Below, in pieces: positions 17,571-48,254 of a stretch of 64,000 nucleotides of DNA; the first letter of the stretch is position 1; every line of letters begins with the position of its first letter. The DNA comes from Xestospongia bergquistia. Taxonomy: Eukaryota; Porifera; Demospongiae; Haplosclerida; Petrosiidae. The position numbers and the translations under genes are program-made. The DNA is taken from NCBI GenBank assembly GCA_963965975.1, contig OZ014412.1:2420501-2484500 (forward strand), in the 5' to 3' direction. The notes under the pieces were generated by a model. That model was not told where the DNA came from and ran no database searches. It saw only the letters and a list, made by a program, of their open reading frames with translations.

Positions 17571-17639
17571 CAAGAGGGAGAGAGAGAGAGAGAGAGGATA
17601 GTCTACTAGCATACAAGAGGGAGTGAGAGTAGTGGTGTC

Positions 17640-20219: not shown

Positions 20220-23200
20220 CACAACAATAACCTAGAAAAAACAAATTTACATTTAAATCTTGTCTACATTATTAGCTATAGCATCTACTCAAACACTATC
20301 AAGTAATTTCTATTAATCAGTAGCCTACATCATCTACTACTAACTAGCCTGATCTATAATCTACCTATACTAGTTCACAAATAAAGCCTCTTACCTAAAC
20401 ACTAGTGAATAACAGAGGGACCCTCCAGTCCTGCTCCCCACAGCAGGTCTCTAATCTCTTCCATCTTTTAACACAACAATAGTAGAGCTTCATGACATTA
20501 ATGATCAAGATATGAGTGGGTATCATCTCAGTAGACTAACATCAACAATGATTGTCAAAGATCTATACACATAGAATCCACCTATTAACAAATAAAATAT
20601 TTAGTATATATTCTGGTCTATATACCAGCTATGATAAACTACATATTATTAAAGCTCCACTCATGTACTATATAAACATATAATTATAGCCTATATACCT
20701 AACCAATGTTTTAACAAATACTCAATACATTAATACTTACATGTCTTCTCATCTGTTCCAAAGTAAGAGATATATAATCACTTCAGTAATGACTTTATAT
20801 TCTATTGTAACTCTTTAATCTTCATGGTAGACTCACACAAAAATGGTAGACAACAATTGTAGACATGCAGAGACAGAATATCTAATCATATTGTGAACAG
20901 TACATCTAACCACATTGAGAAATCAATTTCATTCAATCTTCACAGTAGAGTCACACAGCAATAACCTAGAAAAAACAAATTTACTTTTAAATTTTGTCTA
21001 CATCATTAGCTATAGCATCAACTCAAACACTATCAACTAATCAGTAGCCAACATTTATTACTAGTCCACTCTAATCTACTTATACCAGTAAAGTTGCTTT
21101 AAATCTAGTCTGTATTAGCTATACATAGCCTCTTACCTAAACACTAGTGAATAACAGAGGAGGGACCCTTCAGTCTTCATGGTAGACTAGACTTCACATA
21201 ACAGTTGATAGAAAGATTAAAGAAATTGATTTCTGACAAAGTGTTAGACATCTGTTCACAATATCTGATTCAATCTTTATGGTTGATGACTTAAGAAATG
21301 GCTCCCCACAGCAGGACTCTAATCTCTTTCCATCTTTTAAGTTTTTAACACAACAATAGTAGAGCTTCATGACATTAATGATCAAGATATGAGTGGGTAT
21401 CATCTCAGTAGACTAACATCAACAATGATTGTCAAAGATCTATACACATAGAATCCACCTATTAACAAATAAAATATTTAATATATATTCTGGTCTATAT
21501 ACCAGCTATGATAAACTACATATTATTAAAGCTCCACTCATGTACTATATAAACATATAATTATAGCCTATATACCTAACCAATGTTTTAACAAATACTC
21601 AATACATTAATACTTACATGTCTTCTCATCTGTTCCAAAGTAAGAGGTATCTAATCACTTCAGTAATGACTTGTATTTTATTGTAACTCTTTAATCTTCA
21701 TGGTAGACTCACACAAAAATGGTAGACAACAATTGTAGACATGCAGAGACAGAATATCTAATCATATTGTGAACAGTACATCTAACCACATTGAGAAATC
21801 AATTTCATTCAATCTTCATAGTAGAGTCACACAGCAATAACCTAGAAAAAACAAATTTACTTTTAAATTTTGTCTACATCATTAGCTATAGCATCAACTC
21901 AAACACTATCAACTAATCAGTAGCCAACATTTATTACTAGTCCACTCTAATCTACTTATACCAGTAAAGTTGCTTTAAATCTAGTCTGTATTAGCTATAC
22001 ATAGCCTCTTACCTAAACACTAGTGAATAACAGAGGAGGGACCCTTCAGTCTTCATGGTAGACTAGACTTCACATAACAGTTGATAGAAAGATTAAAGAA
22101 ATTGATTTCTGACAAAGTGTTAGACATCTGTTCACAATATCTGATTCAATCTTTATGGTTGATGACTTAAGAAATGGCTCCCCACAGCAGGTCTCTAATC
22201 TCTTTCCATCTTTTAAGTTTTTAACACAACAATAGTAGAGCTTCATGACATTAATGATCAAGATATGAGTAGGTATCATCTCAGTAGACTAACATCAACA
22301 ATGATTGTCAAAGATCTATACACATAGCATCCACCTATTAACAAATAAAATATTTAATATATATTCTGGTCTATATACCAGCTATGATAAACTACATATT
22401 ATTAAAGCTCCACTCATGTACTATATAAACATATAATTATAGCCTATATACCTAACCAATGTTTTAACAAATACTCAATACATTAATACTTACATGTCTT
22501 CTCATCTGTTCCAAAGTAAGAGATATATAATCACTTCAGTAATGACTTTATATTCTATTGTAACTCTTTAATCTTCATGGTAGACTCACACAAAAATGGT
22601 AGACAACAATTGTAGACATGCAGAGACAGAATATCTAATCATATTGTGAACAGTACATCTAACCACATTGAGAAATCAATTTCATTCAATCTTCACAGTA
22701 GAGTCACACAGCAATAACCTAGAAAAAACAAATTTACTTTTAAATTTTGTCTACATCATTAGCTATAGCATCTACTCAAACACTATCAACTAATCAGTAG
22801 CCAACATTTATTACTAGTCCACTCTAATCTACTTATACCAGTAAAGTTGCTTTAAATCTAGTCTGTATTAGCTATACATAGCCTCTTACCTAAACACTAG
22901 TGAATAACAGAGGAGGGACCCTTCAGTCTTCATGGTAGACTAGACTTCACATAACAGTTGATAGAAAGATTAAAGAAATTGATTTCTGACAAAGTGTTAG
23001 ACATCTGTTCACAATATCTGATTCAATCTTTATGGTTGATGACTTAAGAAATGGCTCCCCACAGCAGGACTCTAATCTCTTTCCATCTTTTAAGTTTTTA
23101 ACACAACAATAGTAGAGCTTCATGACATTAATGATCAAGATATGAGTGGGTATCATCTCAGTAGACTAACATCAACAATGATTGTCAAAGATCTATACAC

Positions 23201-25318
23201 ATAGAATCCACCTATTAACAAATAAAATATTTAATATATATTCTGGTCTATATACCAGCTATGATAAACTACATATTATTAAAGCTCCACTCATGTACTA
23301 TATAAACATATAATTATAGCCTATATACCTAACCAATGTTTTAACAAATACTCAATACATTAATACTTACATGTCTTCTCATCTGTTCCAAAGTAAGAGG
23401 TATCTAATCACTTCAGTAATGACTTGTATTTTATTGTAACTCTTTAATCTTCATGGTAGACTCACACAAAAATGGTAGACAACAATTGTAGACATGCAGA
23501 GACAGAATATCTAATCATATTGTGAACAGTACATCTAACCACATTGAGAAATCAATTTCATTCAATCTTCATAGTAGAGTCACACAGCAATAACCTAGAA
23601 AAAACAAATTTACTTTTAAATTTTGTCTACATCATTAGCTATAGCATCAACTCAAACACTATCAACTAATCAGTAGCCAACATTTATTACTAGTCCACTC
23701 TAATCTACTTATACCAGTAAAGTTGCTTTAAATCTAGTCTGTATTAGCTATACATAGCCTCTTACCTAAACACTAGTGAATAACAGAGGAGGGACCCTTC
23801 AGTCTTCATGGTAGACTAGACTTCACATAACAGTTGATAGAAAGATTAAAGAAATTGATTTCTGACAAAGTGTTAGACATCTGTTCACAATATCTGATTC
23901 AATCTTTATGGTTGATGACTTAAGAAATGGCTCCCCACAGCAGGTCTCTAATCTCTTTCCATGTTTTAAGTTTTTAACACAACAATAGTAGAGCTTCATG
24001 ACATTAATGATCAAGATATGAGTGGGTATCATCTCAGTAGACTAACATCAACAATGATTGTCAAAGATCTATACACATAGAATCCACCTATTAACAAATA
24101 AAATATTTAATATATATTCTGGTCTATATACCAGCTATGATAAACTACATATTATTAAAGCTCCACTCATGTACTATATAAACATATAATTATAGCCTAT
24201 ATACCTAACCAATGTTTTAACAAATACTCAATACATTAATACTTACATGTCTTCTCATCTGTTCCAAAGTAAGAGGTATCTAATCACTTCAGTAATGACT
24301 TGTATTTTATTGTAACTCTTTAATCTTCATGGTAGACTCACACAAAAATGGTAGACAACAATTGTAGACATGCAGAGACAGAATATCTAATCATATTGTG
24401 AACAGTACATCTAACCACATTGAGAAATCAATTTCATTCAATCTTCACAGTAGAGTCACACAGCAATAACCTAGAAAAAACAAATTTACTTTTAAATTTT
24501 GTCTACATCATTAGCTATAGCATCTACTCAAACACTATCAACTAATCAGTAGCCAACATTTATTACTAGTCCACTCTAATCTACTTATACCAGTAAAGTT
24601 GCTTTAAATCTAGTCTGTATTAGCTATACATAGCCCTCTTACCTAAACACTAGTGAATAAGAGAGGAGGGACACTTCAGTCTTCATGGTAGACTAGACTT
24701 CACATAACAGTTGATAGAAAGATTAAAGAAATTGATTTCTGACAAAGTGTTAGACATCTGTTCACAATATCTGATTCAATCTTTATGGTTGATGACTTAA
24801 GAAATGGCTCCCCACAGCAGGTCTCTAATCTCTTTCCATCTTTTAAGTTTTTAACACAACAATAGTAGAGCTTCATGACATTAATGATCAAGATATGAGT
24901 GGGTATCATCTCAGTAGACTAACATCAACAATGATTGTCAAAGATCTATACACATAGAATCCACCTATTAACAAATAAAATATTTAATATATATTCTGGT
25001 CTATATACCAGCTATGATAAACTACATATTATTAAAGCTCCACTCATGTACTATATAAACATATAATTATAGCCTATATACCTAACCAATGTTTTAACAA
25101 ATACTCAATACATTAATACTTACATGTCTTCTCATCTGTTCCAAAGTAAGAGGTATCTAATCACTTCAGTAATGACTTGTATTTTATTGTAACTCTTTAA
25201 TCTTCATGGTAGACTCACACAAAAATGGTAGACAACAATTGTAGACATGCAGAGACAGAACATCTAATCATATTGTGAACAGTACATCTAACCACATTGA
25301 GAAATCAATTTCATTCTT
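20220..25318. repeat. 876-bp satellite array, about five full units plus a divergent first unit
   Basis: Equivalent points recur at 21194, 22070, 22947, 23823 and 24700 (spacing 876, 877, 876, 877). Diagnostic variants (CAGGACTCT/CAGGTCTCT, GAGATATAT/GAGGTATCT, CATCAACTC/CATCTACTC) alternate over the earlier units, so the array amplified partly as a ~1,753-bp dimer. The first unit (20220-20940) is more divergent. A 69-codon minus-strand frame in every unit has no recognisable domain. Confidence 0.95.
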
Positions 25319-26930
25319 TCTTGTCTCTTTCAATCTTCATGGTTAGCAGTATCATGTAGTTGTACAACCAGTCGGATATATATGGTAGTATTCTGTATCT
25401 GTAGAGAAAGCCTCTTTCCTACCATCAATTAGATATGTGGCCATCAAAGACTCTCTGCAACAATCCTTCCTAACACTAATCGGTCACATAAGGCAACTAT
25501 GTGGTTAGTCCTTTCTTTCTCTAATACTCTGTGCAGCAATCCTACATCATACTCAGCCCCAGCTGGAATTCGCAGTCATTACAGGTTACAGGAAAATATT
25601 GTAGAGGGTTCTTTTACAGCAAATGTCAGCTGAAGCAGGTTACAGAGAGCCAGCTGTTGCAGAGAGCCAGTTGTTCCAGAGAGAAAGAGAGAGAGGTCTC
25701 AAGTCCTTTCCAAATGAAGAGAAGGCTTGAAAAAGATGAAACTGGTTTGATTCTTTAAATTCACCTTTTTTGTACTTATTGTGTGCTATGATAAGACAGA
25801 CAATCTGGCTTCATGAGAGAATAACAAATACACAATGTGAGAAAAGCAAACTTAGATGATATCAGTAGCCAATCAAATTTCTTCTACAAATATTTTGGCT
25901 CCATTATAATTAGTAGGCGTTTTAATTATAAATTAAAAGTGTTGTTATCATATAATTTGGTATTCAACAGTCACTGTTAATATAAGAGCACACTATAGTA
26001 GTTTGTGGTCTAGCTATTGTAACCAGCTGAAATTTTGATTTGATCCTCACTTGATTTCTATAGTAGGAAATCCGTGGAGTGTGTTGTGATCTAAATAAAA
26101 TCACTTAAACCAAGCATTGATTGTACCATAATCATAGTAATGTATAGTAATGTGTTAGTTGTTATTGATTCTAAACCCAGTGGTAATAATCCCTACCATA
26201 AGGCAGCTGCTAATCTTCACAAACAATTGCGAATTGGTGCAACTAAATGCGTATTTTTCCTTAAATTCATTTTAAACCTTTGGTCATAAATTTTTTTAAA
26301 CTTTAATGATAACCATTGCAAGTAACTTACTAATATCATTCAAATATCAAAGATTAGATAGATTTAACGGTATAGCAGAGAATAAATAGTACTACATCAC
26401 CATAACAACAAAGTTGCTATGGTAACAAGATGCATATTAGGATTGTGTATTTAGAAATCAGACATCATAGGTCATCAAAGTAAGTGTGGTCAATGCTGCC
26501 ATGATCTCTCATTAGACTCCTTCTCCACTTCATCATCCAGGAGATGGACTACCCTCAGTTTGGAGTGAATATCTCAAGTGTGGGTATCGACTTAAAGCTT
26601 CATGTCAAATTCTTGAAGGTCTTGTACCTGTTGTTATGACAACACACATAATAACCTACTTTGACTTATACCATCCATCATATACAAATCCATGTCTTTG
26701 AGTGGGCGTGGTTTTCCATTTGTCCTTTACCCCATACAATATACGTTACAATGTACTTACTTGCGTCCATTCATATCAGTCTATCCTTCCATTCATCTAT
26801 CAATTCATTTATCCGTCCATTTATTTGCATCATTTAAACAATAATAGAGATAAAGGAGGAGACTGTTATTTTCATTATATGTTCAGGTTCAATGTTTGTT
26901 GTTGAACTATCTTCCTTACATTATTTTATC
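25319..26930. other. Unique stretch inside the repeat block, possible decayed exons
   Basis: Mostly featureless. Two stretches look coding-like on the plus strand: about 26180-26245 (NPYHKAAANLHKQL) and about 26540-26700 (SVWSEYLKCGYRLKASCQIL). I could not assign a family or draw a complete gene, so they may be relics. Confidence 0.35.
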
Positions 26931-27250
26931 CAAATTTTGTTTAACTGGTATTTTCAACTTTGTGCTTATAACTTACTATTTACCTGGCTTCTCTTGATGT
27001 ACTTTATTTAGATAGAAGGAACAAAAGATAATGAGAAGAGTGTTTATGTAGTGATTTTTATTTTTTTAAGCCCCTGTAAAATTAAAATGTGATAAAAATT
27101 ATTATAATTAGTAGTGTTGTTCTAGTTTAGGACTAGTTTTATTCTTCACCCTTAAAAGTATAGTTTTAATTTCAATTATTTTAACAGTCTCATCTAGTAA
27201 TCATATTCATAGTTTACGTTAATGACATTCATAAGCGTACACAGTGCAGT
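26931..27250. repeat. Upstream segment of macro-repeat copy 1
   Basis: Sequence around TACCTGGCTTCTCTTGATGT, followed by TAAGCCCCTGTAAAATTAAA, recurs at about 30240-30620, 34018-34140 and 37985-38110, always several hundred bp before the 347-bp element. Confidence 0.9.
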
Positions 27251-27293
27251 CCCACAAGAGCATGAAGACAAAATCTGCAGTACATATAAAAGG
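27251..27293 (+). promoter_or_regulatory. Proximal block and TATA box of 347-bp element, copy 1
   Basis: TATAAAAGG at 27285 lies 31 bp before the start of the closing stem. The block from CCCACAAGAGCATGAAGAC (27251, about -65) to the TATA is conserved in all four copies, including copy 2, where the sequence further upstream differs (CGACAAACAACGCG instead of CGTACACAGTGCAG). The spacing matches PSE plus TATA of polymerase III type-3 promoters. Equivalent TATA boxes start at 30830, 34331 and 38309. Confidence 0.65.
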
Positions 27294-27314
27294 AAACGAA
27301 AACCACCTTGGATA

Positions 27315-27661
27315 GGTTGTGTTGTGGGCCAGCGTTCTGCAATGCATCAGACCTCTGAGATGGTTACCAGCATACTCTACGGAGTATCCGAAAGGCCGAC
27401 TAGGATAGGGCTGGTAGTCTCCCTTTAAACGAGATGAGGCTGGTGTATTTGTGGTTCCTGGTTCCTGAATGCGACATTCCCTAAGAGCTGGAATCCCGTA
27501 CGGCTGGTTTTAAGTTAGGGCGATGCTCCAGCCAGGATTACCTCGCGAAGACGAGGGTTACCAAGCCAGGTGGCGGTCCCAGCTAGCAATAGCAGGGAAT
27601 CCTGGAGCCTAAGTGGAAGCCTGAGTGGGTGAGCGAGTAGGAATCGTTTGGGCAACACAAC
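27315..27661 (+). ncRNA. 347-bp structured RNA gene candidate, copy 1
   Basis: GC-rich (roughly half, against about one third around it). The ends pair as GTTGTGTTG with CAACACAAC. Internal hairpins include ATACTC-TACG-GAGTAT (a UNCG-type tetraloop), CCTCG/CGAGG, ACCAGC/GCTGGT and GACTA/TAGTC. A TATA box lies 31 bp upstream, and a T5 run starts three bases after the closing stem, as for a polymerase III terminator. Four copies are exactly 347 bp and differ at only a few positions. No protein frame is kept. It does not match my memory of RNase P, MRP, 7SK, SRP, U3 or telomerase RNA. RNA identity is inference. Confidence 0.65.
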
Positions 27662-28257
27662 ATGTTTTTACTTTTTTTAATAAATCTTAACTTTATTATT
27701 TAAACTACGAGCCAATCCAAAGTAAAGTTAATGTTGTTGCTAAAAGTCAAAATTAAAGGACATATTGGAAGTTCCTTTAATTTCAGTTCAACATAACACT
27801 AACTATAATAGATATTTGGTAACAACATCCATGATGTCTCACTGACTGAAGATCTTCTCCTTGTGCTATCATCACAACATTGTCAATATTATAATAGTTT
27901 TCAATGGATCCTGGATAATAAGTTCCACCATTGAGTCAGTAATCATTTCAAGCACAGGGTATATCGTAGAACTATTGCCTCATTGTTCTATTGTATTTCT
28001 GAGTCTGCATGAGCATTTTTTCAACAATTATAAACAACAATAGATTGAACAGTTGGTTATATTTTGAAACTTTCTCCAACTCAAAGGGATAACTAACTCC
28101 ATAAAAAATCAAGTCATTTTGTTGCTTATCATCTTAGGCCATTTTTAAGCAGGGCACGCACGATTTACTGTCCAAAAGTGTCTCGAGAACAAAAGGAGTC
28201 CCAAATTCCCTTTGGACATTTGATGGCAATACTGGACAATCACATCCTTTTCTTTGT
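27662..28257. repeat. Downstream segment of macro-repeat copy 1
   Basis: Nearly identical to 31207-31800, and to 34708-35735 apart from an insertion there. It includes GTCCCAAATTCCCTTTGGAC near its end. A 60-codon plus-strand frame occurs in two copies but is interrupted in the third, so it is not called as a gene. Confidence 0.9.
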
Positions 28258-28342
28258 TTAGTTGAGTGATTTTATTTCACCATCTATGAATTCTGTTTTG
28301 CTTTGCATAACATTCAGGATTGTCACGACAAATTTGGTCCTG

Positions 28343-28372
28343 GTGCAAAATTTGGACTTAGGTCCAAACTTT
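28343..28372. repeat. 30-bp imperfect palindrome
   Basis: TTTGGACTTAGGTCCAAA with flanking GCAAAA/CTTTGC forms an almost perfect inverted repeat beside the truncated copy of the 347-bp element. It could be an insertion scar or a short foldback. Confidence 0.7.
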
Positions 28373-28377
28373 GCAAC

Positions 28378-28452
28378 GGTTGTGTTGTGGGCCAGCATTC
28401 TGCAATATATCAGACCTCTGAGATGGTTACCAGCATACTCTACGGAGTATCC
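28378..28452 (+). ncRNA. Truncated copy of the 347-bp element inside the nocturnin relic
   Basis: The first ~75 bases of the element are present with a few changes, starting exactly at GGTTGTGTTG. The sequence before that is unrelated to the other copies. The copy ends just after the TACG hairpin and abuts nocturnin codons. The shared left border supports GGTTGTG as the true 5' end of the mobile or transcribed unit. Confidence 0.75.
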
Positions 28453-29373
28453 AATGCTATGTGATGTGAAGGATAGTGTTGACATGGTAACCCACTACAA
28501 CCAATGACATCCTCTGGTGGTATATCTAATATACTCACTAACTTCAGACTCTGTGATGAATACTATATATAATCTGCTGGCAATTTAACATTGCCAGATG
28601 CACTGCATTTTCATACAGTAAAGTTTGGCTCAGAACCCTCTCTGTTGTACGCACTAGAGATAGGAGGTTTTGATGATGAGAAGTGACCATAGACTAGTTC
28701 TTTGGGACCAGCATTGAAGTTACCACAACATATTAAAGGTAAGTCTCCTGCAAGCTCACATACTTGATCTAAGATATAGTCACCTTGAAGTAATCTTGTC
28801 TGAACTAAAAAGTGTCCTTCTTTTAATCCAGTTGCTACTACACATATCTTATTACTGAAAGTTTGGAATCTGGCTAAAATAGCAACCTGGTTAGAATTAG
28901 ATAGAGCAAGATCATTTGTAGGTAAGATAATTTCTTTCTTCTTGACTAATTGCAAGCATTTAGTGTTATAAACCAATGCAATATCATCTGAACCATTGTT
29001 AGGTACAGATTTAAGACATTTTGAGTGTGGCCTTGCAACAAAAATACTATGATATCCATCTCTTTGAAAAAAAGGCTTTAAGAAGTCATGATAGTGATCA
29101 ACACCTTGTAAGCATATGAGATCAGCATCTATTCTTTGTAATTGCTCCAATATTAATGGTTTACGATAGCTCCATGACAGATAGTCCAGTGGTACTTTAA
29201 AAAGTGTTGCCCCTGTATATTGGTTAGTAATTGCCATACCTAATGTACGCTGTATTAAATGATACAATCTAAATATCAGTATATTTACCATCTGCTAATA
29301 TATCCCACTGAACCACTTTTATAGTGTTGCCTTTATCAGCATCTAAAGGCATCCAGTCTCGAGCTAAAAGCAT
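28440..29373 (-). pseudogene. NOCT: Nocturnin-like deadenylase/phosphatase, disrupted
   Basis: Two exons (29373-29289 and 29239 downward) flank a 49-bp intron. The reading VVQWDILADG, then LICLQGVDHYHDFLKPF, ICVVATGLKEG, PLICCGNFNAGPKELVY and SAYNREGSEPNFT follows the endonuclease/exonuclease/phosphatase fold of nocturnin. Family knowledge: nocturnin removes the 2'-phosphate from NADP(H) and is related to CCR4 deadenylases. After EPNFT the alignment runs on through two in-frame stops, TGA at 28611-28613 and TAG at 28563-28565, both where the family has Trp. The next 40 codons (SILDIPPEDVIG, YPSHHIAL) still align. The end is cut by the truncated 347-bp element. The DFNA-type motif reads NFNA here. 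I call it a pseudogene, probably recent. Confidence 0.75.
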
Positions 29374-30239
29374 CTCTACTGCCAGGATCAGCCACACCCT
29401 TCAATTTTTGCAATGAGCCACACCCATTACAAATTATGAATAATCAAAAGTACACGAAGTGGAAATATTTATATCTACAGTATCATGTATGCTATAACAT
29501 AATACAATGGAGTATAGCATATATCAAGATATTATACTCATATCGTGTACATGCTCAAACACAATATAGTATGGGACACATATACTGGACACTAGTCACT
29601 GAATGTCTAATGCACCAGTAATATAGTTATACTATCTTCTTTATGTGCAGCAGGTTAGCTGTGAGGTTTATATCTCATTGATGTATAGGTCATAGATGCC
29701 AGAGTATTCTAACATGTATGACAATACTTATATTATTTACTGACCTTAGATATCCAGTATAAAGATTTAGGAACTTTTTGAGGGAGATCTATTCATGATT
29801 TTCTATCAATCAGATGAAGGTGAAAATGTACATGCACTTTTCATATAGAAAATGTAAACTGCAGGCAATAGAACAACCACTGTCTATGTCATCTATTATA
29901 TATCTCACTACAATGGACTACCTAACAGATGAAGTGAGGTGAATACTATGTGTATACTAACTATATGGTCAGTCTGAAGAAAATGATTTCAGCTCATTCA
30001 AGCATATATGGACATCATAACAGCAATGAGGGACAGGAGTCAACTCCCTTCTGGAAGTGGAGATAAAGAAAGAGGTGAGGCTTCATTTTATCTCTCTTCA
30101 TTCGGTGTAAGATCTTCAGGTACTTCTAATATTAATTTCTCAATACACTGATCTTTTGAAGGGGCAATGTCTTGATATTTAGTAGTTTGTTAAGCCTTTG
30201 TGACTGATAATATATATATATTATATAATTATTATATCA
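29374..30239. other. Spacer with one possible exon
   Basis: Mostly AT-rich. About 29988-30075 reads as an open exon (AYMDIITAMRDRSQLPSGSG) ending in a good donor (GAG|GTGAGG). A later stretch, 30462-30536, continues in phase (KAIGLRELSKAGALEELKEL, then stop). The pair could be the 3' end of a small coiled-coil gene with some likeness to IFT20; I am not sure. Confidence 0.3.
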
Positions 30240-30795
30240 AAAACCTGTTTGACTGGTATTTTTAACTTTATGCTTATAAATTATATTTACCTGGCTTCTC
30301 TTGATGTACTACATTTTTACATTGGACTTTTTTTAAAAGCTTAAATTTATGCCACCACTTCTTATAAAATTGAGACATAAAATCATGAATTTCCATTTTT
30401 GTATTAACTGTTATATAGACAGTTAGGTTGACCCTATATAATTAGCTAATTATAGCTACAACAAGATAAGTCGAAAGCCATTGGCTTAAGAGAGTTATCC
30501 AAAGCTGGAGCACTTGAGGAACTAAAGGAGCTGTTATAAATTTAGATAATGAAGAAGAGTGTTTAGGTAATGATTTTTACTTTTTTAAGCCCTTTTAAAA
30601 TTAAAATATGATAAAAATTATTATAATTAGTAGTGTTATTCTAGTTTGCTTAAGTAGGGCTAGTTTTATTTTTGGCTCTTGAAAGTTACAGTATTTTAGT
30701 AGTATTAATTTTTTTAGCAGTCTCATCGATGCCATGTTCAGAAGTGTCGTTAGCTCACTAGCGTTAATGATATTCATAGACGACAAACAACGCGC
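30240..30795. repeat. Upstream segment of macro-repeat copy 2
   Basis: Diverged relative of 26931-27250, interrupted by the unique stretch at about 30400-30545. It leads into the conserved promoter block and TATA at 30830. Confidence 0.8.
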
Positions 30796-30859
30796 CCCAC
30801 AAGAGCATGAAGACAAAATCTGCAGTACATATAAAAGGAAATGAAAACCACCTTGGATA

Positions 30860-31206
30860 GGTTGTGTTGTGGGCCAGCGTTCTGCAATGCATCAGACCTC
30901 TGAGATGGTTACCAGCATACTCTACGGAGTATCCGAAAGGCCGACTAGGATAGGGCTGGTAGTCTCCCTTTAAACGAGATGAGGCTGGTGTATTTGTGGT
31001 TCCTGGTTCCTGAATGCGACATTCCCTAAGAGCTGGAATCCCGTACGGCTGGTTTTAAGTTAGGGCGATGCTCCAGCCAGGATTACCTCGCGAAGACGAG
31101 GGTTACCAAGCCAGGTGGCGGTCCCAGCTAGCAATAGCAGGGAATCCTGGAGCCTAAGTGGAAGCCTGAGTGGGTGAGCGAGTAGGAATCGTTTGGGCAA
31201 CACAAC
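30860..31206 (+). ncRNA. 347-bp structured RNA gene candidate, copy 2
   Basis: It appears identical to copy 1 over the element, with TATA at 30830-30838 and a T-run after the closing stem. Upstream of about -65 the flank differs from the other copies, so the conserved region begins at the putative proximal element. Confidence 0.65.
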
Positions 31207-31809
31207 ATGTTTTTACTTTTTTTAATAAATCTTAACTTTATTATTTAAACTACGAGCCAATCCAAAGTAAAGTTAATGTTGTTGCTAAAAGTCAAAATTA
31301 AAGGACATATTGGAAGTTCCTTTAATTTCAGTTCAACATAACACTAACTATAATAGATATTTGGTAACAACATCCGTGATGTCTCACTGACTGAAGATCT
31401 TCTCCTTGTGCTATTATCACAACATTGTCAATATTATAATAGTTTTCAATGGATCCTGGATAATAAGTTCCACCATTGAGTCAGTAATCATTTCAAGCAC
31501 AGGGTATATCGTAGAACTATTGCCTCATTGTTCTATTGTATTTCTGAGTCTGCATGAGCATTTTTTCAACAATTATAAACAACAATAGATTGAACAGTTG
31601 GTTATATTTTGAAACTTTCTCCAACTCAAAGGGATAACTAACTCCATAAAAAATCAAGTCATTTTGTTGCTTATCATCTTGGGCCATTTTTAAGTAGGAC
31701 GCGATTTACTGTCCAAAAGTGTCTCGAGGACAAAAGGAGTCCCAAATTCCCTTTGGACATTTGATGGCAATACTGGACAATTACATCCTTTTCTTCATTT
31801 CTTTATTTA
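31207..31809. repeat. Downstream segment of macro-repeat copy 2
   Basis: Near-identical to 27662-28257, then continues into satellite array 2 through TTTAGTTCACATATATAG. Confidence 0.9.
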
Positions 31810-32540
31810 GTTCACATATATAGATATATTACATCCAGTAGCAGTCCTGACTTCTTTCCTCCTACATGTAGTTAGCACAATAGTAGTAGTGTCATGTACC
31901 TTATAGCTAGGAATCACATATATAAGTATATCACATCCAGTAGCAGTCCTGACTTCCTTTCCTACATGTAGTTAGCACAATAGTAGTCGTGTAATGTACC
32001 TTATAGGGATTCACGTACATCCAGTAGCAGTCCTGACTTCTTTTCTCCTACATGTAGTTAGCACAATAGTAGTAGTAGTGTCATGTACCTTATATAGGGA
32101 TCACATATATAGGTATATCACATCCAGTAGCAGTCCTGACTTCCTTTCCTACATGTAATTAGCACAATAGTAGTAGTGTAATGTACCTTATAGGGATCAC
32201 GTATATCCAGTAGCAGTCCATAAGTATATCACATCCAGTAGCAGTCCTGACTTCCTTTCCTACATGTAGTTAGCACAATAGTAGTAGTGTCATGTACCTT
32301 ATAGGGATCACGTATATCCAGTAGCAGTCCTGACTTCTTTTCTCCTACATGTAGTTAGCACAATAGTAGTAGTGTCATGTACCTTATATAGGGATCACAT
32401 ATATAGGTATATCACATCCAGTAGCAGTCCTGACTTCCTTTCCTACATGTAGTTAGCACAATAGTAGTAGTGTCATGTACCTTATATAGGGATCACATAT
32501 ATTCATATATTAGGTATATCACATCCAGTAGCAGTCCTTT
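31810..32540. repeat. ~95-bp satellite array 2, about seven copies
   Basis: Same unit as array 1 (CTACATGTAGTTAGCACAAT), ending in the same CTTTTGTCTCCAATACA junction. Confidence 0.95.
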
Positions 32541-34015
32541 TGTCTCCAATACAATCCTATATGTACAAATAAATTCAATTAACGTACTAAGAAAATTTCA
32601 ATCTAGTCTGTATTAGCTATAACCTCTACCTAAACACACTACAAAATATACCTTTCAACCACTAGACCATCTCACTCACATTTGTTCTGATGGAGGTTTC
32701 ATGTACTGTGACAGTAACTCTTGTATCATTGTCTTGTATATAGTCCATTCATCAACAAAACATCACACAATGTCTCTTAAGCTTTACTGCTTTCTTTTCA
32801 AAGATCACAGATGCCTCTTCATGGCAGTGGCAGGGCAACCTTTAGTAGAGTCACACAAAAATAACCTAGAAAAAACAAATTTACATTTAAATCTTGTCTA
32901 CATTATTAGCTATAGCATCTACTCAAATACTATCAAGTAATTTTTATTAATCAGTAGCATCTACTACTAACTAGCCTGATCTAATCTACCTATACTAGTT
33001 CACAAATAAAGCCTCTTATCTAAACACTAGTGAATAACAGAGGAGGGACCCTTCAGTCTTCACGATAGACTAGACTTCACACTACAGTTGATAGAAATAT
33101 TAAAGAAATGATTTGACAAAGTGTTCAACATCTGTTCACAATATCTGATTCAATCTTTATGGTTGATGACTTGAGAAATGACTCCCCACAGTAGGACTCT
33201 AATCTCTTTCCATCTTTTAACACAACAATCTCAGTAGACTAACATCAACAATGATCGTCAAAGATCTATACACATAGAATCCACCTATTAACAAAAAAAA
33301 TATTTAATATATTCTGGTCTATATACCAGCTATGATAAACAACATATTATTAAAGCTCCACTCATGTACTATATAAACATATAATTATAGCCAATGTTTT
33401 AACAAATACTCAATACATTAATACTTACATGTCTTCTCATCTGTTCCAAAGTAAGAGGTATCTAATCACTTCAGTAATGACTTTATATTCTATTGTAACT
33501 CTTTAATCTTCATGGTAGACTCACACAAAAATGGTAGACAACAATTGTAGACAGAGACTGAACATCTAATCATATTGTGAACAGTACATCTAACCACATT
33601 GAGAAATCAATTTCATTCAATCTTCACAGTAGAGTCACACAGCAATAACCTAGAAAAAACAAATTTACTTTTAAATTTTGTCTACATCATTAGCTATAGC
33701 ATCTACTCAAACACTATCAACTAATCAGTAGCCAACATTTATTACTAGTCCACTCTAATCTACTTATACCAGTAAAGTTGCTTTAAATCTAGTCTGTATT
33801 AGCTATACATAGCCTCTTACCTAAACACTAGTGAATAAGAGAGGAGGGACACTTCAGTCTTCATGGTTGACTAGACTTCACACAACAGTTTATAGAAATA
33901 TTAAAGAAATTGACTTCTGACAAAGTGTTACAGATCTATTCACAATATCTGATTCAATCTTTAATTCATGGTTGATGACTTGAGAAATGGCTCCCCACAG
34001 CAGGGCTCTAATCTC
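32541..34015. repeat. Link plus about 1.4 units of the 876-bp repeat, copy 2
   Basis: The link (32541-32860) is followed by shortened, diverged 876-bp-type sequence. The first unit lacks parts of the segment carrying the 69-codon frame. The second begins at about 33610 and stops at 34015. Confidence 0.9.
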
Positions 34016-34360
34016 TGTACTTATAACTTACTATTTACCTGGCTTCTCTTGATGTACTTTATTTAGATAGAAGGAACAAAAGATAATGAGAAGAGTGTTT
34101 ATGTAGTAATTTTTATTTTTTAAGCCCCTGTAAAATTAAAATGTGATAAAAGTTATTATAATTAGTAGTGTTGTTCTAGTTTAGGACTAGTTTTATTCCT
34201 CACCCTTAAAAGTATAGTTTTAATTTCAATTAGTCTCATCTAGTAATGATATTCATAGTTTACGTTAATGACATTCATAAGCGTACACAGTGCAGTCCCA
34301 CAAGAGCATGAAGACAAAATCTGCAGTACATATAAAAGGAAGTGAAAACCACCTTGGATA

Positions 34361-34707
34361 GGTTGTGTTGTGGGCCAGCGTTCTGCAATGCATCAGACCT
34401 CTGAGATGGTTACCAGCATACTCTACGGAGTATCCGAAAGGCCGACTAGGATAGGGCTGGTAGTCTCCCTTTAAACGAGATGAGGTTGGTGTATTTGTGG
34501 TTCCCGGTTCCTGAATGCGACATTCCCTAAGAGCTGGAATCCCGTACGGCTGGTTTTAAGTTAGGGCGATGCTCCAGCCAGGATTACCTCGCGAAGACGA
34601 GGGTTACCAAGCCAGGTGGCGGTCCCAGCTAGCAATAGCAGGGAATCCTGGAGCCTAAGTGGAAGCCTGAGTGGGTGAGCGAGTAGGAATCGTTTGGGCA
34701 ACACAAC
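34361..34707 (+). ncRNA. 347-bp structured RNA gene candidate, copy 3
   Basis: Differs from copy 1 at two visible positions (GAGGTTGG and TTCCCGGTT). TATA starts at 34331. A long T-run follows the stem. The stem sequences are unchanged. Confidence 0.65.
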
Positions 34708-35735
34708 ATGTTTTTTTTTTTTTTAAATAAATCTTAACTTTATTATTTAAACTACGAGAATGTCAGCCAATCCAAAGTAATGTTGTTGCTAAAAGTCAAA
34801 ATTAAAGGACATATTAGAAGTTCCTTTAATTTCAGTTCAACATAACACTAACTATAATAGATATTTGGTGACAACATCCGTGATGTCTCACTGACTGAAG
34901 ATCTTCTCCTTGTGCTATCATCACAACATTGTCAATATTATAATAGTTTTCAATGGATCCTGGATAGAAGTTCCACCATTGAGTCAGTAAGCTTGTTTGG
35001 AATAACAAAACATACCTTTTTTAAATGTAATAGAAATATGTTTATAATACTCCAGAACATTTTCAACTTTTGATGCTTAATTTTACAATATTAATTGATC
35101 AATTTTTAGAATTACTTTGCATTTGTCTAAATTGTAATAACTGTTTATTTGCCACTTGAATTGTGGCTAAGATATTAAAGCTACTTTTTCTCTAACCAGG
35201 ATAATATAGATTGTGTGTAAAATAGCAACATTATTCTATATTTCTGGATATCTTCCTGTAATCCATATCAACTAAATTCCAAAACCAGCAGTCACACTCT
35301 ACACTCTCAAAACATAAATCAAAGATTGTCTTTTGCATTAACTTTGGCCTGTACTAGTGTACTCATAGTTGCTCACACCTACTGCAATATCAACTGTGCC
35401 TCATTTCAAGCACAGGGTATATTGTAGAACTATTGCCTCATTGTTTTATTGTATTTCTGAGTCTGCATGAGCATTTTTCCAACCAATATTCAACAATTAT
35501 AAACAACAATAGATTGAACAGTTGGTTATATTTTGAAACTTTCTCCAACTCAAAGGGATAACTAACTCCATAAAAAATCAAGTCATTTTGTTGCTTATCA
35601 TCTTGGGCCATTTTTAAGTAGGACGCGATTTACTGTCCAAAAGTGTCTCGAGGACAAAAGGAGTCCCAAATTCCCTTTGGACATTTGATGGCAATACTGG
35701 ACAATCACATCCTTTTCTTTATTTCTTTATTTAGT
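34708..35735. repeat. Downstream segment of macro-repeat copy 3, with insertion
   Basis: Equivalent to 31207-31800 but carries an extra segment between GAGTCAGTAA and TCATTTCAAG, annotated separately. Confidence 0.85.
34989..35401. mobile_element. ~413-bp insertion in macro-repeat copy 3 (unclassified)
   Basis: The sequence is absent at the matching point of copies 1 and 2. It is AT-rich with no open frame. No clear terminal inverted repeats or target duplication were seen by eye. It is either a short transposon or copy-specific filler. Confidence 0.45.
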
Positions 35736-35739
35736 TCAC

Positions 35740-36535
35740 ATATATAGATATATTACATCCAGTAGCAAGCAGTCCTCACTTCTTTTCCTACATGTAGTTA
35801 GCACAATAGTAATAGTGTCATGTACCTTATAGGGGTAACATATATAAATATATCACATCCAGTTGCAGTCCTGACTTCCTTTCCTACATGTAGTTAGCAC
35901 AATAGTAGTACTAGTGTAATGTATCTTATAGGGATCACGTATATCCAGTAGCAGTCTGACTTCTTTCCTACATGTAGTTAGCACAATAGTAGTAGTGTAA
36001 TGTACCTTATAGGGATCACATATATAGATATATCACATCCAGTAGCAGTCCTGACTTCCTTTCCTACATGTAGTTAGCACAATAGTAGTAGTGTAATGTA
36101 CCTTATAGGGATCACATATATAGATATATCACATCCAGTAGCAGTCCTGACTTCCTTTCCTACATGTAGTTAGCACAATAGTAGTAGTGTAATGTACCTT
36201 ATAGGGATCACATATATAGATATATCACATCCAGTAGCAGTCCTGACTTCCTTTCCTACATGTAGTTAGCACAATAGTAGTAGTGTAATGTACCTTATAG
36301 GGATCACATATATAGATATATCACATCCAGTAGCAGTCCTGACTTCCTTTCCTACATGTAGTTAGCACAATAGTAGTAGTGTAATGTACCTTATAGAGAT
36401 CACATATATAGATATATCACATCCAGTAGCAGTCCTGACTTCCTTTCCTACATGTAGTTAGCACAATAGTAGTAGTGTCATGTACCTTATAGGGATCACA
36501 TATATTAGGCATATAACATCCAGTAGCAGTCCTTT
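35740..36535. repeat. ~95-bp satellite array 3, about nine copies
   Basis: Same family as arrays 1 and 2. Five consecutive long units between about 36000 and 36420 are nearly identical, the most homogenised part of the family here. Confidence 0.95.
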
Positions 36536-37985
36536 TGTCTCCAATACAGTCACACGTCATTATCCTATATGTTCAAATAAATTCAATTAACCTACTAAGA
36601 ACATTTCAATCTAGTCTGTATTAGCTATAACCTCTACCTAAACACACTACAAAATATACCTCTCAACCACTAGACCATCTTACTCACATTTGTTCTGATG
36701 GAGGTTTCATGTATTGTGACAGTAACTCTTGTATCAGTGTCTTGTATAGTCCATTCATCCACAAAGACATCACACAATGTCTCTTAAGCTTTATTGCTTT
36801 CTTTTCAAAGATCACAAATGTCTCTTCATGGCAGTGACAGGACAACCCTTTAGTAGAGTCACACAACAATAACCTAGAAAAAACAAATTTACATTTAAAT
36901 CTTGTCTACATTATTAGCTATAGCATCTACTCAAACACTATCAAGTAATTTCTATTAATCAGTAGCCTACATCATCTACTACTAACTAGCCTGATCTAAT
37001 CTACCTATACTAGTTCACAAATAAAGCCTCTTATCTAAACACTAGTGAATAACAGAGGAGGGACCCTTCAGTCTTCAGTCAGTCTTCAGTCTTCACGATA
37101 GACTAGACTTCACAATATCTGATTCAATCTTTATGGTTGATGACTAGAGAAATAGCTCCTCACAGTAGGGTTCTAATCTCTTTCCATCTTTTAACACAAC
37201 AATCTCAGTAGACTAACATCAACAATGATCGTCAAAGATCTATACACATAGCATCCACCTATTAACAAAAAAAATATTTAATATATTCTGGTCTATATAC
37301 CAGCTATGATAAACTACATATTATTAAAGCTCCACTCATGTACTATATAAACATATAATTATAGCCAATGTTTTAACAAATACTCAACACATTAATACTT
37401 ACATGTTTTCTCATCTGTTCCAAAGTAAGAGGTATCTAATCACTTCAGTAATGACTTTATATTCTATTGTAACTCTTTAATCTTCATGGTAGACTCACAC
37501 AAAAATGGTAGACAACAATTGTAGACAGAGACTGAACATCTAATCATATTGTGAACAGTACATCTAACCACATTGAGAAATCAATTTCATTCAATCTTCA
37601 CAGTAGAGTCACACAGCAATAACCTAGAAAAAACAAATTTACTTTTAAATTTTGTCTACATCATTAGCTATAGCATCTACTCAAACACTATCAACTAATC
37701 AGTAGCCAATATTTATTATTAGTCCATTCTAATCTACTTATACCAGTAAAGATGCTTTAAATCTAGTCTGTATTAGCTATACATAGCCTCTTACCTAAAC
37801 ACTAGTGAATAAGAGAGGAGGGACACTTCAGTCTTCATGGTAGACTAGACTTCACACAAAAGTTGATAGAAAGATTAGAGAAATTGATTTCTGACAAAGT
37901 GTTAGACATCTGTTCACAATATCTGATTCAATCTTTAATTCATGGTTGATGACTTGAGAAATGGCTCCCCACAGCAGGGCTCTAA
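36536..37985. repeat. Link plus about 1.4 units of the 876-bp repeat, copy 3
   Basis: Parallels 32541-34015 closely, including the break points. The macro-repeat period between copies 2/3 and 3/4 is about 3.5 and 4.0 kb. Confidence 0.9.
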
Positions 37986-38338
37986 TCTCTGTACTTATAA
38001 CTTACTATTTACCTGGCTTCTCTTGATGTACTTTATTTAGATAGAAGGAACAAAAGATAGAAGAGTGTTTATGTAGTAATTTTTATTTTTTAAGCCCCTG
38101 TAAAATTAAAATGTGATAAAAGTTATTATAATTAGTAGATTTGTTCTAGTTTAGGACTAGTTTTATTCTTCACCCTTAAAAGTATAGTTTTAATTTCAAT
38201 TATTTTAACAGTTTCATCTAGTAATGATATTCATAGTTTACGTTAATGACATTCATAAGCGTACACAGTGCAGTCCCACAAGAGCATGAAGACAAAATCT
38301 GCAGTACATATAAAAGGAAATGAAAACCACCTTGGATA

Positions 38339-38685
38339 GGTTGTGTTGTGGGCCAGCGTTCTGCAATGCATCAGACCTCTGAGATGGTTACCAGCATACT
38401 CTACGGAGTATCCGAAAGGCCGACTAGGATAGGGCTGGTAGTCTCCCTTTAAACGAGATGAGGCTGGTGTATTTGTGGTTCCCGGTTCCTGAATGCGACA
38501 TTCCCTAAGAGCTGGAATCCCGTACGGCTGGTTTTAAGTTAGGGCGATGCTCCAGCCAGGATTACCTCGCGAAGACGAGGGTTACCAAGCCAGGTGGCGG
38601 TCCCAGCTAGCAATAGCAGGGAATCCTGGAGCCTAAGTGGAAGCCTGAGTGGGTGAGCGAGTAGGAATCGTTTGGGCAACACAAC
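38339..38685 (+). ncRNA. 347-bp structured RNA gene candidate, copy 4
   Basis: One visible difference from copy 1 (TTCCCGGTT). TATA starts at 38309. A T-run follows the closing stem. The macro-repeat ends about 200 bp downstream, at about 38889. Confidence 0.65.
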
Positions 38686-38889
38686 ATGTTTTTTTTTTTT
38701 TTAAATAAATATTAACTTTATTATTTAAACTACGAGCCAATCCAAAGTAAAGTTAATGTTGTTGCTAAAAGTCAAAATTAAAGGACATATTGGAAGTTCC
38801 TTTAATTTCAGTTCAACATAACACTAACTATAATAGATATTTGGTGACAACATCCGTGATGTCTCACTGACTGAAGATCTTCTCCTTGT
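38686..38889. repeat. Truncated downstream segment of macro-repeat copy 4
   Basis: Matches 31207-31405, then breaks off after CTTCTCCTTGT, where unique sequence leading to the gene cluster begins. Confidence 0.9.
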
Positions 38890-45415: not shown

Positions 45416-48254
45416 ATGGCAGAAAGACCAGATACACCAAGTGTCCTAGAAGAAGGTGAAAAGACAAGAGATGAAGACTTGAAACAAATCAAACAAGAAG
45501 TCAAGAATATTATCACAAGTTGCTATGCTACTTTATCTTCAACAGTGTCTGGTTGTCTACCTGATTTTGCCAAAGAAATGTTACAGGCAAAACTAATAAC
45601 TCATTATGTTATGAGAAGTGAACAATTTGGTAACATCATGCAAGACTATACAGCTGGTATAGAATGTATTTGTAGCTATACAGACTTGGTGAATTATTGT
45701 TTGAAATTGCTTGGTGTGCTTCGAAGTTTAGGTGGTCCAGTTGAACTAGTTGCTAACGTTTTACAAGAGAAATGGAATGAGGTTATGAAAAGAAAGTTTG
45801 GCCTATGTTTTATTCCACAACCTCGTGAAAGGAGAATCAATTCTTCACCAGTAGTACCATCTTGTCCACCACCAACAAAGCTATCTTACAGTGAATTCTC
45901 TAAAGCTTGTCCTTCGAAGATGGATACAATACAAGATGAACCTAGTGTTCACTGTAAAAATTGATTAGTTAATTTAACCAATACATGGTTATGTGGGTTG
46001 CATATGTAAAAAGTAACCTTAATACTACTTTGATTACTAATGTACTATGAAATTATTGGTTATGTAGCTACATAAACAGTAGGACATTAGTAATGAAAAC
46101 AGTATTATGCTTACTTTTCTAGCAAAAATATATTTGTAATTGCAACCTGTATAACCAAATAATGGTTAAATCAACCAATCATTTTTTACAGTGTTCGTCA
46201 GGAAATTGGTAGGTTTATTGATGCTGAGAGTACAATATAACTAGTTGCTAATGTTTTACAAGAGAAATGGAATGAGGTTATGAAAAGAAAGTTTGGCTAT
46301 ATGTAATTTAACAAAGATGGCTTCATAATTTCTAACTCGTGTTTAGAAGATTGCTGTTATTAACACTTGTTGTTGCTCTCAATAAAACCAACAGGCTTAC
46401 TTGAAATATAACAAACAACATACTTAAAAACACAAACAAGCATGTAGTGTTTAAAGAAACTAAGTTGATAAATTACGTGATGTGTAAACAACATCACTAA
46501 AGATAGATGACATCACAACCCAATATTAAGATATATAACAATCATTAGCTGTCCTTCCTATGTTATACTGTAGCATCACACAATTATCTTAAGACGATTT
46601 TTACAATGATGACTTTTATTAATATTGTTGTAGAGTATGTGAGAGGTACCAGTCAGAAGGAGATAACAGTAACAGATGACTTCTACTCTAAAGAAATGAA
46701 GGATTTTCTTGATCTACGTAAGTTACACTGATAATCTGACAATATAATAAATTCCATCTCTATTTTATTTTTAGTTGACAAACCTACTAAACATGATGTT
46801 TTAATACAACTAGCTCCTATATATGTATCATGGCGTAGTATTGGCAATGGTCTTAGAGTGAGTGATAATGATCTTAACAGTTTGGCTCAGTCCAATAAGT
46901 TTGATCAAGACAAACTTGATCATGTGCTCCAGAGATGGATAGATAAAGACAATGATGTCACTTGGAAGATGATCATAGATGTTGTTAGAGGACCACTCAT
47001 TCAAAACAATGCTTTAGCTAAGAAGATATTCCAGTATTTGAAACAAGAATTCTCCAAGCAACAGAAAGCTACCAGTAAGTATATATATCAGTAATCATTG
47101 ATACAATGTTTGATATTCACATAGACCTAGAGACAAAGGAGCTCACGACACATGACGAGACAGATTTTCTTGATATAAATGTTCAGCAAGAAGCTGGTAA
47201 GATTAACAAACCAGACAACATCACTGAAGAAAGTATTGTTCAAGATCCTTCATCTTCTCGTAATGTAACAATGACCAGATCCAGTTCTTCAGTATCTGAT
47301 GGTTTTGTATCTGGAGTAGAGAATAGGAAATCATTACTATTATTTGATAAACCTGCTGAACAAGATTCTGGTATAGCACCTACAACATGTGAGTCCCAAA
47401 CACCAGAAACTGTATGTTCAATGTATGTGTCTGGTCCTGCTGAAGAGTCCCCTAATCACCTTGAGACAGAAGAGAACAACAACAGCAAGAATAATGACTC
47501 TGGTTATCTTGCTGTTAGTATGGCAGAATCCACAAGTCATACAGCTAGTACACTAGATAATTCTCATTGTCATCTCTCATTCGGTACAGAAGACAAGACA
47601 GCTGATCATGACCCGGAGACTCCATGTGGTGACTATCTCTGTAATGTTACTGAAGAGTCTGGTAATAGTCCAGTCCACTCCAACAGTCAAGAGATCACTT
47701 TATCCAGTCATGAAACTGAGGATTCCACTAACTCAAATAGTCAAGTGGAAGTCAATATAACAACAATTACCACTCCTTCTCATATTGTCGAAGTACCTCA
47801 TACAGTCTCTCAGTCTCCAACACAGCCTGCTGACCACAAACCTTTTGGTAATACTAATGAGAGATCTATAGAACCGCCATTTCCTGTTGAAGAGAGCACC
47901 CAACAACATCAGACAACTCCAGAGACTCTTTGTCCTGAGTATAATTCACCAAGTCATGTACCTCCTCAGAAACCAAACAGCACTTCTCAAGATAAGTCTG
48001 AACAGCCTCAACAAGATAAACATCAAGTGACTTCATCAACTGTAAGAGATATAGTACAGTCATGGGTTAATAATATATTCAATACTCCATTATTGCATAA
48101 ATCAGCTATAACAATGTTTGATGTTACAGTACTCTGTATACTAAGTATACCATTACAAGGATTGTTATATGGAAGTTGGTGTGTGTTTGGTCATTGTATG
48201 TGTTTTGTTATTTTATTGATATTATTACTTATTTATATTATACATCGACAATGA
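45416..48254 (+). CDS. Class A gene A2 with inserted Death-like cassette (CARD-like, Death-like, linker, membrane hairpin)
   Basis: Proposed exons: 45416-45944, 46634-46717, 46775-47074, 47125-48254, 680 residues, phase-consistent. The first exon is the A-type CARD-like domain (LPDFAKEMLQAKLIT, LQEKWNEV). If unspliced it stops at 45964 after 182 residues. The donor used here (CCTA|GTGTTC) is weak, so two separate products are possible. Exons 2-3 carry the Death-like domain (VSWRSIGNGLRV, LDHVLQRWIDKD). The last exon reads straight from the cassette into the class A linker (KPDNITEES), where gene D1 has a donor (GTAAG). The C-terminus has two hydrophobic segments (LTVLC-type and FVILLILLLIYII). 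Confidence 0.55.
46243..46302 (+). pseudogene. 60-bp piece of class A CARD-like coding sequence inside an A2 intron
   Basis: CTAGTTGCTAATGTTTTACA and the following ~40 bases match the LQEKWNEVMKRKFG codons of class A genes (for example 45746-45805). They interrupt sequence otherwise colinear with 42450-42480. Confidence 0.8.

Follow-up and report, generated by a model that had tools for sequence, protein, structure and literature searches.

A multicopy family of putative type-3 RNA polymerase III genes for a structured RNA in the sponge Xestospongia bergquistia

The genome of the sponge Xestospongia bergquistia carries hundreds of near-identical copies of a 347-bp element that, judging by their sequence, very probably constitute a real type-3 RNA polymerase III (Pol III) RNA family transcribed from its own promoters. 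Four of these RNA genes lie in a stretch of 64,000 nucleotides (nt) of contig OZ014412.1 (assembly GCA_963965975.1, positions 2,420,501 to 2,484,500, forward strand), which is referred to here as the window. Taking all observations together, we consider it probable that the copies form a genuine Pol III gene family encoding an abundant scaffold RNA of a ribonucleoprotein (RNP), kept alike across many loci. The evidence comprises the copies themselves, the similarity of their promoters to those of the U6 and RNase P genes, a footprint of conservation, the subtelomeric enrichment of one subfamily (termed B), and a satellite derived from the gene.

An initial annotation of this DNA had described four 347-bp copies at 27315, 30860, 34361, and 38339, and both positions and length were confirmed, the last three copies being 100%, 99.4%, and 99.7% identical to the first. 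As described there, the gene is GC-rich within AT-rich DNA (53.6% GC for the RNA versus 33.6% for the window). The TATA box TATAAAAGG precedes every copy, its start lying 30 nt ahead of the copy's stated first base and 31 nt ahead of the first base of the closing stem, and the conserved upstream block was delimited as a 19-bp sequence, CCCACAAGAGCATGAAGAC, resembling a proximal sequence element (PSE) and present at −64 to −46 in all four copies. A T-run begins 3 nt past the closing stem in each of them, with five T's (T5) in the first two copies and fourteen (T14) in the other two. The 9-bp closing stem is visible in the sequence, and both this stem and the hairpin with a C-UACG-G loop are part of the predicted fold. 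The features of the four genes are as follows.

27315..27661, + strand: RNA gene copy 1, subfamily A, reference copy for identities
30860..31206, + strand: RNA gene copy 2, 100% identity with copy 1
34361..34707, + strand: RNA gene copy 3, 99.4% identity
38339..38685, + strand: RNA gene copy 4, 99.7% identity
27227..27233, + strand: candidate distal element ATTCATA of copy 1 (−88), counterparts at 30772, 34273, and 38251
27251..27269, + strand: PSE-like block CCCACAAGAGCATGAAGAC of copy 1, 97% conserved
30796..30814, + strand: PSE-like block of copy 2
34297..34315, + strand: PSE-like block of copy 3
38275..38293, + strand: PSE-like block of copy 4
27270..27284, + strand: AAAATCTGCAGTACA block between the PSE and TATA box of copy 1, largely common to U6 upstream regions
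27285..27293, + strand: TATA box of copy 1 (−30)
30830..30838, + strand: TATA box of copy 2
34331..34339, + strand: TATA box of copy 3
38309..38317, + strand: TATA box of copy 4
27665..27669, + strand: T5 run of copy 1, candidate terminator for Pol III
31210..31214, + strand: T5 run of copy 2
34711..34724, + strand: T14 run of copy 3
38689..38702, + strand: T14 run of copy 4

The initial annotation proposed a type-3 Pol III layout, and the upstream regions of other genes in the same genome lend it support. Two U6 genes (RF00026) were found on contigs C5 and C15 (114.1 bits each, over the Rfam cut-off), together with a third U6-like locus; family-based genome searches of this kind scored some of the candidates only (40 of 430 in one search), so that counts from them are lower bounds. 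The three U6 loci share AAAATC..CAGTAAATATAAAAG and a distal ATTCAT-like element with the RNA family, and the U6 TATA box lies 29 nt before the presumed U6 start. Upstream of the RNase P RNA gene (RF00009; C5, best score 156.7 bits), CCCACAA..TTGAAAAC and TATAAAA were found, and a sponge RNase P gene is described as having typical Pol III signals (PMC4287351). Genes of the same genome that are established Pol III genes therefore have the layout in common. With regard to the features that define type-3 genes, the block at the position expected for a PSE (about −65 to −45) has related counterparts in two of the three U6 loci and in the RNase P gene; TATAAAAGG at −30 in all four copies corresponds to a TATA box about 25 to 30 nt before the start; and the ATTCATA-type motif at −88 is a candidate distal element, located in a block (−100 to −80) that is 84% conserved and resembling a motif near U6. 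A search for the internal promoter of type-2 genes revealed no B-box-like site in the RNA at ≤2 mismatches and only two A-box-like sites.

A pattern derived from one U6 upstream region (≤3 mismatches) matched the genome 17 times and had no match in the reversed control. When inspected singly, these matches comprised 3 U6 loci, 7 members of the RNA family (3 of subfamily A and 4 of subfamily B), 5 loci resembling, on inspection by eye, genes for Y RNA, and 2 unnamed loci; Rfam at gathering score, applied to 16 of the 17, recognized only two U6 genes. The likeness to U6 covers the distal ATTCAT-like element, the AAAATC..CAGTA.ATATAAAAG block, a TATA box at 29 to 30 nt, and a 3′ T-run, whereas the RNAs are unrelated in sequence and differ in length (∼105 versus 347 nt), and three U6 loci were seen compared with hundreds of genes of the family. 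The RNase P gene is alike in its CCCACAA..TGAA.AC block, its upstream TATAAAA, and the similar length of its RNA, but the RNA is unrelated and its loci on C5 are separate.

The same pattern also identified loci that are worth recording in their own right. The five Y-RNA-like loci (L034, L039, L046, L047, and L048, on C13, C2, and C14), three of them in tandem on C14, combine a U6-type promoter with a GGTGGTCC ... GACCACTTTTT layout resembling Y RNA; L034, the only one of them scored at a relaxed threshold, reached 19.7 bits to RF00019 (cut-off, 38). The two unnamed loci, L036 (C9:7318381) and L040 (C3:5832861), have a U6-type promoter (TATATAAG) followed by a short stretch ending in a T-run; they have a sequence like AATGTCACTTAGA in common and no Rfam match at gathering score.

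The family proved to be far larger than the four members initially counted. Pattern searches of the whole genome (15 large contigs), with the reversed pattern as control, detected 152 matches to the promoter of subfamily A and none with the pattern read backwards. Subfamily B is distinct at both ends (5′ CCAGTGTGTTG, 3′ CAACACACAAGGG); its 3′-end pattern had 159 matches, 99 of them exact, and its 5′ pattern had 392, both controls being empty. The 392 matches probably include satellite monomers (see below), the start of which differs by about 3 bases as judged by eye, and we therefore use the 159 3′ ends as the count for subfamily B. An in-phase exact B 3′ end was found for 71 of the 92 exact B 5′ ends. 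Among the matches listed, copies fall on all 15 large contigs.

Comparison of 25 dispersed A copies (of 26 distinct ones) revealed that conservation tracks the gene, that is, the distal element, PSE, TATA box, RNA, and terminator, and not the local macro-repeat. Mean pairwise identity was 0.992 to 1.0 within the RNA, 1.0 in the TATA box, 0.97 in the PSE, 0.98 in the interval between PSE and TATA box, 0.93 immediately ahead of the start, and 0.84 in the distal element, compared to 0.58 in the spacer between distal element and PSE and 0.63 to 0.67 farther upstream; past the T-run, it dropped from 0.82 to 0.46. Such a footprint, in which a variable spacer (58%) separates two conserved elements, is not what one continuous tract of conversion would leave. 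Only 9 of the 347 positions varied among 29 fetched full copies (including 3 duplicate fetches). Among 49 distinct full-length copies for which the upstream sequence sufficed, 48 combined a PSE, a TATA box, and a run of at least four T's, the exception being the diverged copy L108; most of this sample was fetched via core or promoter similarity and is thus not unbiased, the PSE test allowed 4 mismatches, and only totals are used because the A/B labels in this check were unreliable. The initial annotation had attributed the amplification to a satellite macro-repeat, which holds for the local cluster but not for the dispersed copies, because the flanks of the 25 compared copies have diverged whereas their promoters and RNAs are nearly identical.

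The RNA is likely structured, its exact fold being a prediction. In an alignment of 35 rows (A1), which takes in the partial or decayed copies L049, L065, L075, L078, L108, L114, and L115, a model of 65 pairs had 98.1% of cells paired, compared to 34 to 47% with slid partners. Two-sided changes occurred in 13 cells (shuffled mean, 4.4; 0 of 500 shuffles reached 13). The main double change in the closing stem (29 rows with letters) is U-A in 18 rows, G-C in 10, and G-U in 1, and the 11 changed rows have lost the adjacent outer pair. In most rows the loops vary as stable loops do: one arm has UACG, UUCG, or UUUG, a second has GAAA, CAAA, or UUCG, and a third has either a six-base loop or a longer stem with UUCG or UUUG. 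With the partial rows included, RNAalifold by itself failed to recover the closing stem, nor was the fold favored by its covariation term.

The initial annotation could not match the RNA to a known one, and the same outcome was obtained with 4,227 Rfam families, none of which matched the region 27200-27720 even at an E value of ≤10; Rfam at gathering score found nothing in the whole window. ARAGORN found no tRNA, and no convincing box C, Sm site, or B box was seen in the RNA. Protein coding was rejected, with stops in all six frames of the RNA. Known RNAs were rejected likewise: the signal recognition particle RNA of this genome (RF00017) maps to a different locus, on C8 (226.2 bits), RNase P RNA has its own loci as described above, and 5S rRNA has separate genes (at least 26 matches, all on C1 among the matches listed). 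Telomerase RNA was judged unlikely, as CCCTAA or CCCTAAA repeats are matched over 7 nt at most and no template exceeding one telomere repeat is present; published sponge telomerase RNAs have pseudoknot, CR4/5, and H/ACA domains (PMC8480181). One 21-mer of the RNA had no match in prokaryote and viral contig collections, which says little given the nature of these collections. Titles and abstract openings of the literature searched did not name such an RNA.

The distribution of the copies differs between subfamilies. Exact B copies cluster near contig ends, with 86 of 92 within 1 Mb (chance, 20.5%) and 68 of 92 within 500 kb (chance, 10.3%), and the corresponding numbers for exact B 3′ ends are 89 and 74 of 99. 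The tendency is weaker for A copies: the 100 listed of the 152 include 27 within 250 kb of a contig end, where 5.1% would be expected, and 33 within 1 Mb, for which the expectation is 20.5%. Of the same 100, 81 lie on C1 to C3, many of them internally, including those of the window (C2, 2.42 Mb). Contigs C6, C9, and C12 start inside family sequence (L115, L116, and L114, respectively), which forms a tandem satellite with a period of 341 bp on C12 and about 340 bp on C6 and C9. Its unit consists of the promoter region joined to the RNA from nt 1 to ∼157, and the satellite is thus derived from the promoter and 5′ half of the RNA gene. The satellite pattern detected 357 monomers genome-wide (control, 0); the 47 tabulated ones, namely, all 38 exact monomers and 9 with one mismatch, all point to the contig end and lie within about 70 kb of it, an orientation that may stem from one ancestral array. 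Where sampled, the interval between satellite and tip contains other repeats and CCCTAAA-like sequence. Another satellite-to-tip repeat, with recurring TACGCGTATTTTA and GGCGCCAAAA motifs, was observed near contig ends at L125, L126, L131, L132, and L122 (C2 and C5). Telomere-directed transcription by the full genes was considered and rejected: among exact matches within 1 Mb, 43 of 86 B 5′ ends and 39 of 89 B 3′ ends are directed toward the end, as for random orientation.

For the Pol III gene family, we propose the following sequence of events. SNAPc would bind the PSE, and TBP with BRF2 would bind the TATA box; this U6-type machinery would recruit Pol III, which would start at about 27315 and stop in the T-run at 27665, yielding an RNA of ∼350 nt. 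Its ends would be joined by a stem of 8 to 9 bp around structured arms with stable loop caps, and the stable, abundant product may serve as the scaffold of an RNP. The dose of RNA required may exceed what one gene supplies, and very many near-identical genes would therefore be kept. Copies would have spread by duplication and exchange at the DNA level, chiefly among subtelomeres, and selection together with gene conversion would keep them alike. The dispersed 5S rRNA genes of some fungi offer a parallel for both spread and homogeneity, being many dispersed Pol III genes with a near-identical transcribed part and different flanks; their promoter is internal, however, whereas the conserved promoter of the sponge family lies upstream, and the 5S matches listed for this sponge (at least 26) lie on a single contig.

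Several observations weigh against this interpretation. One of the three U6 loci (L035) lacks the CCCACAA block, and the RNase P upstream region lacks the AAAATC..CAGTA block between its CCCACAA block and TATA box. Although T5 or T14 runs stand past the stem, a TTTT at nt 194 to 197, absent from the description in the initial annotation, lies inside the RNA and could end some transcripts early. The fold energy is only modestly low (z = −1.92), an equally good value being reached by 4 of 100 shuffles. Double changes affect 3 pairs, a number that 11 of 500 shuffles and also a slide of the partners by −3 attain, and further pair types are not above the shuffled level (165 of 500). In the closing stem, the main double change is probably one event.

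The family might instead be a subtelomeric repeat of a selfish or passive kind: an old Pol III gene would have been swept up in duplications of subtelomeric DNA and would now multiply through recombination, having little function, and the high identity would reflect recent homogenization. The marked concentration of subfamily B toward contig ends, the many truncated and rearranged copies, and the satellite made of promoter and RNA 5′ half all fit such a history. However, conservation follows the promoter elements and the RNA ends with a variable spacer between them, and homogenization alone has no reason to stop at these borders; moreover, the signals are retained in 48 of 49 full copies of the sample described above, which was not unbiased, and the closing stem survives two-sided change. 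We therefore regard the repeat explanation as rather unlikely. More doubtful is a specific tie of the RNA to chromosome ends, in which the very large set of genes with U6-type promoters, the B genes concentrated in the subtelomeres of most chromosomes, and the telomere-pointing, promoter-bearing satellite would indicate an RNA or RNP component of chromosome ends without a counterpart among known families.

A role as regulator of neighboring subtelomeric gene families, as for RUF6 beside the var genes of Plasmodium falciparum, appears very improbable. RUF6 resembles the family as a GC-rich, multicopy Pol III RNA in an AT-rich genome. In favor are also the subtelomeric bias and the Pol III-type promoter of the sponge genes, and the window cluster adjoins repeated related open reading frames (ORFs) with a weak Death-domain match. 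RUF6 nevertheless differs, as it comprises 15 RNAs, each 135 nt long, carries A and B boxes, and is linked to var genes (PMC9670795).

Slightly less credible still is a mobile element, either a retroposon or a nonautonomous DNA transposon, carrying the RNA gene, for which the dispersal and the truncation of some copies might speak. The promoter, which would not be transcribed, was copied as well. The truncated copies in L022 and L063 run beyond the terminator into the 3′ flank and L076 fuses the promoter to the middle of the gene, so that these are not retrocopies. Flanks are alignable over hundreds of bases and fade gradually, which, together with the types of truncation, fits duplication and exchange of DNA rather than retroposition. 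A recurrent boundary at 27942, common to several dispersed copies, was inspected and, as judged by eye, shows a relic of the RNA family itself. Retroposition and transposition were both judged unlikely on the sequence, without a systematic survey of insertion sites.

The least probable alternative, a strongly diverged 7SK RNA, agrees with the length (the Rfam 7SK model, RF00100, has 331 positions) and the stem closing the 5′ and 3′ ends but not with the lack of any Rfam match at an E value of ≤10, the hundreds of genes, or the absence from both subfamilies of GATC (GAUC is a motif of 7SK), and while the genome yielded no other 7SK, that search was empty in the controls too and shows nothing either way.

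Two further traces of the family lie in the window, of which the truncated piece was checked upstream for a PSE and a TATA box, neither being found.

28378..28452, + strand: truncated 5′ piece of 75 bp, RNA nt 1 to 75 only, 96% identity
27902..27942, + strand: diverged relic with likeness to the 3′ part of the RNA, comparison by eye

Between copies 1 and 2, a 227-amino-acid ORF (28611-29294, − strand) matches the endonuclease/exonuclease/phosphatase family (27.7 bits; cut-off, 24.5). The series of related repeated ORFs beside the cluster extends over 39124-61138 (+ strand) and includes an exon-like ORF (46735-47094) with a Death-domain score of 22 bits, just below the cut-off of 22.6; a protein kinase ORF is also present in the window. 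Related arrays of a ∼96-bp tandem repeat surround the cluster (17628-19862, 31812-32538, and 35736-36533), and a ∼876-bp tandem repeat with units about 98 to 99% identical lies just ahead of it (20433-25322).

In summary, the observation made in the initial annotation is confirmed, and its interpretation is partly supported. To our knowledge, animals have few recognized type-3 Pol III RNAs, most of which were found through their conservation in well-studied species. If the Pol III gene family is genuine, its structured RNA of ∼350 nt, encoded by hundreds of nearly identical genes of the U6 type, would add a new major RNA from an early-branching animal. The family would also provide a natural test of how dispersed noncoding genes stay alike and an example of a satellite near chromosome ends that arose from a Pol III gene.

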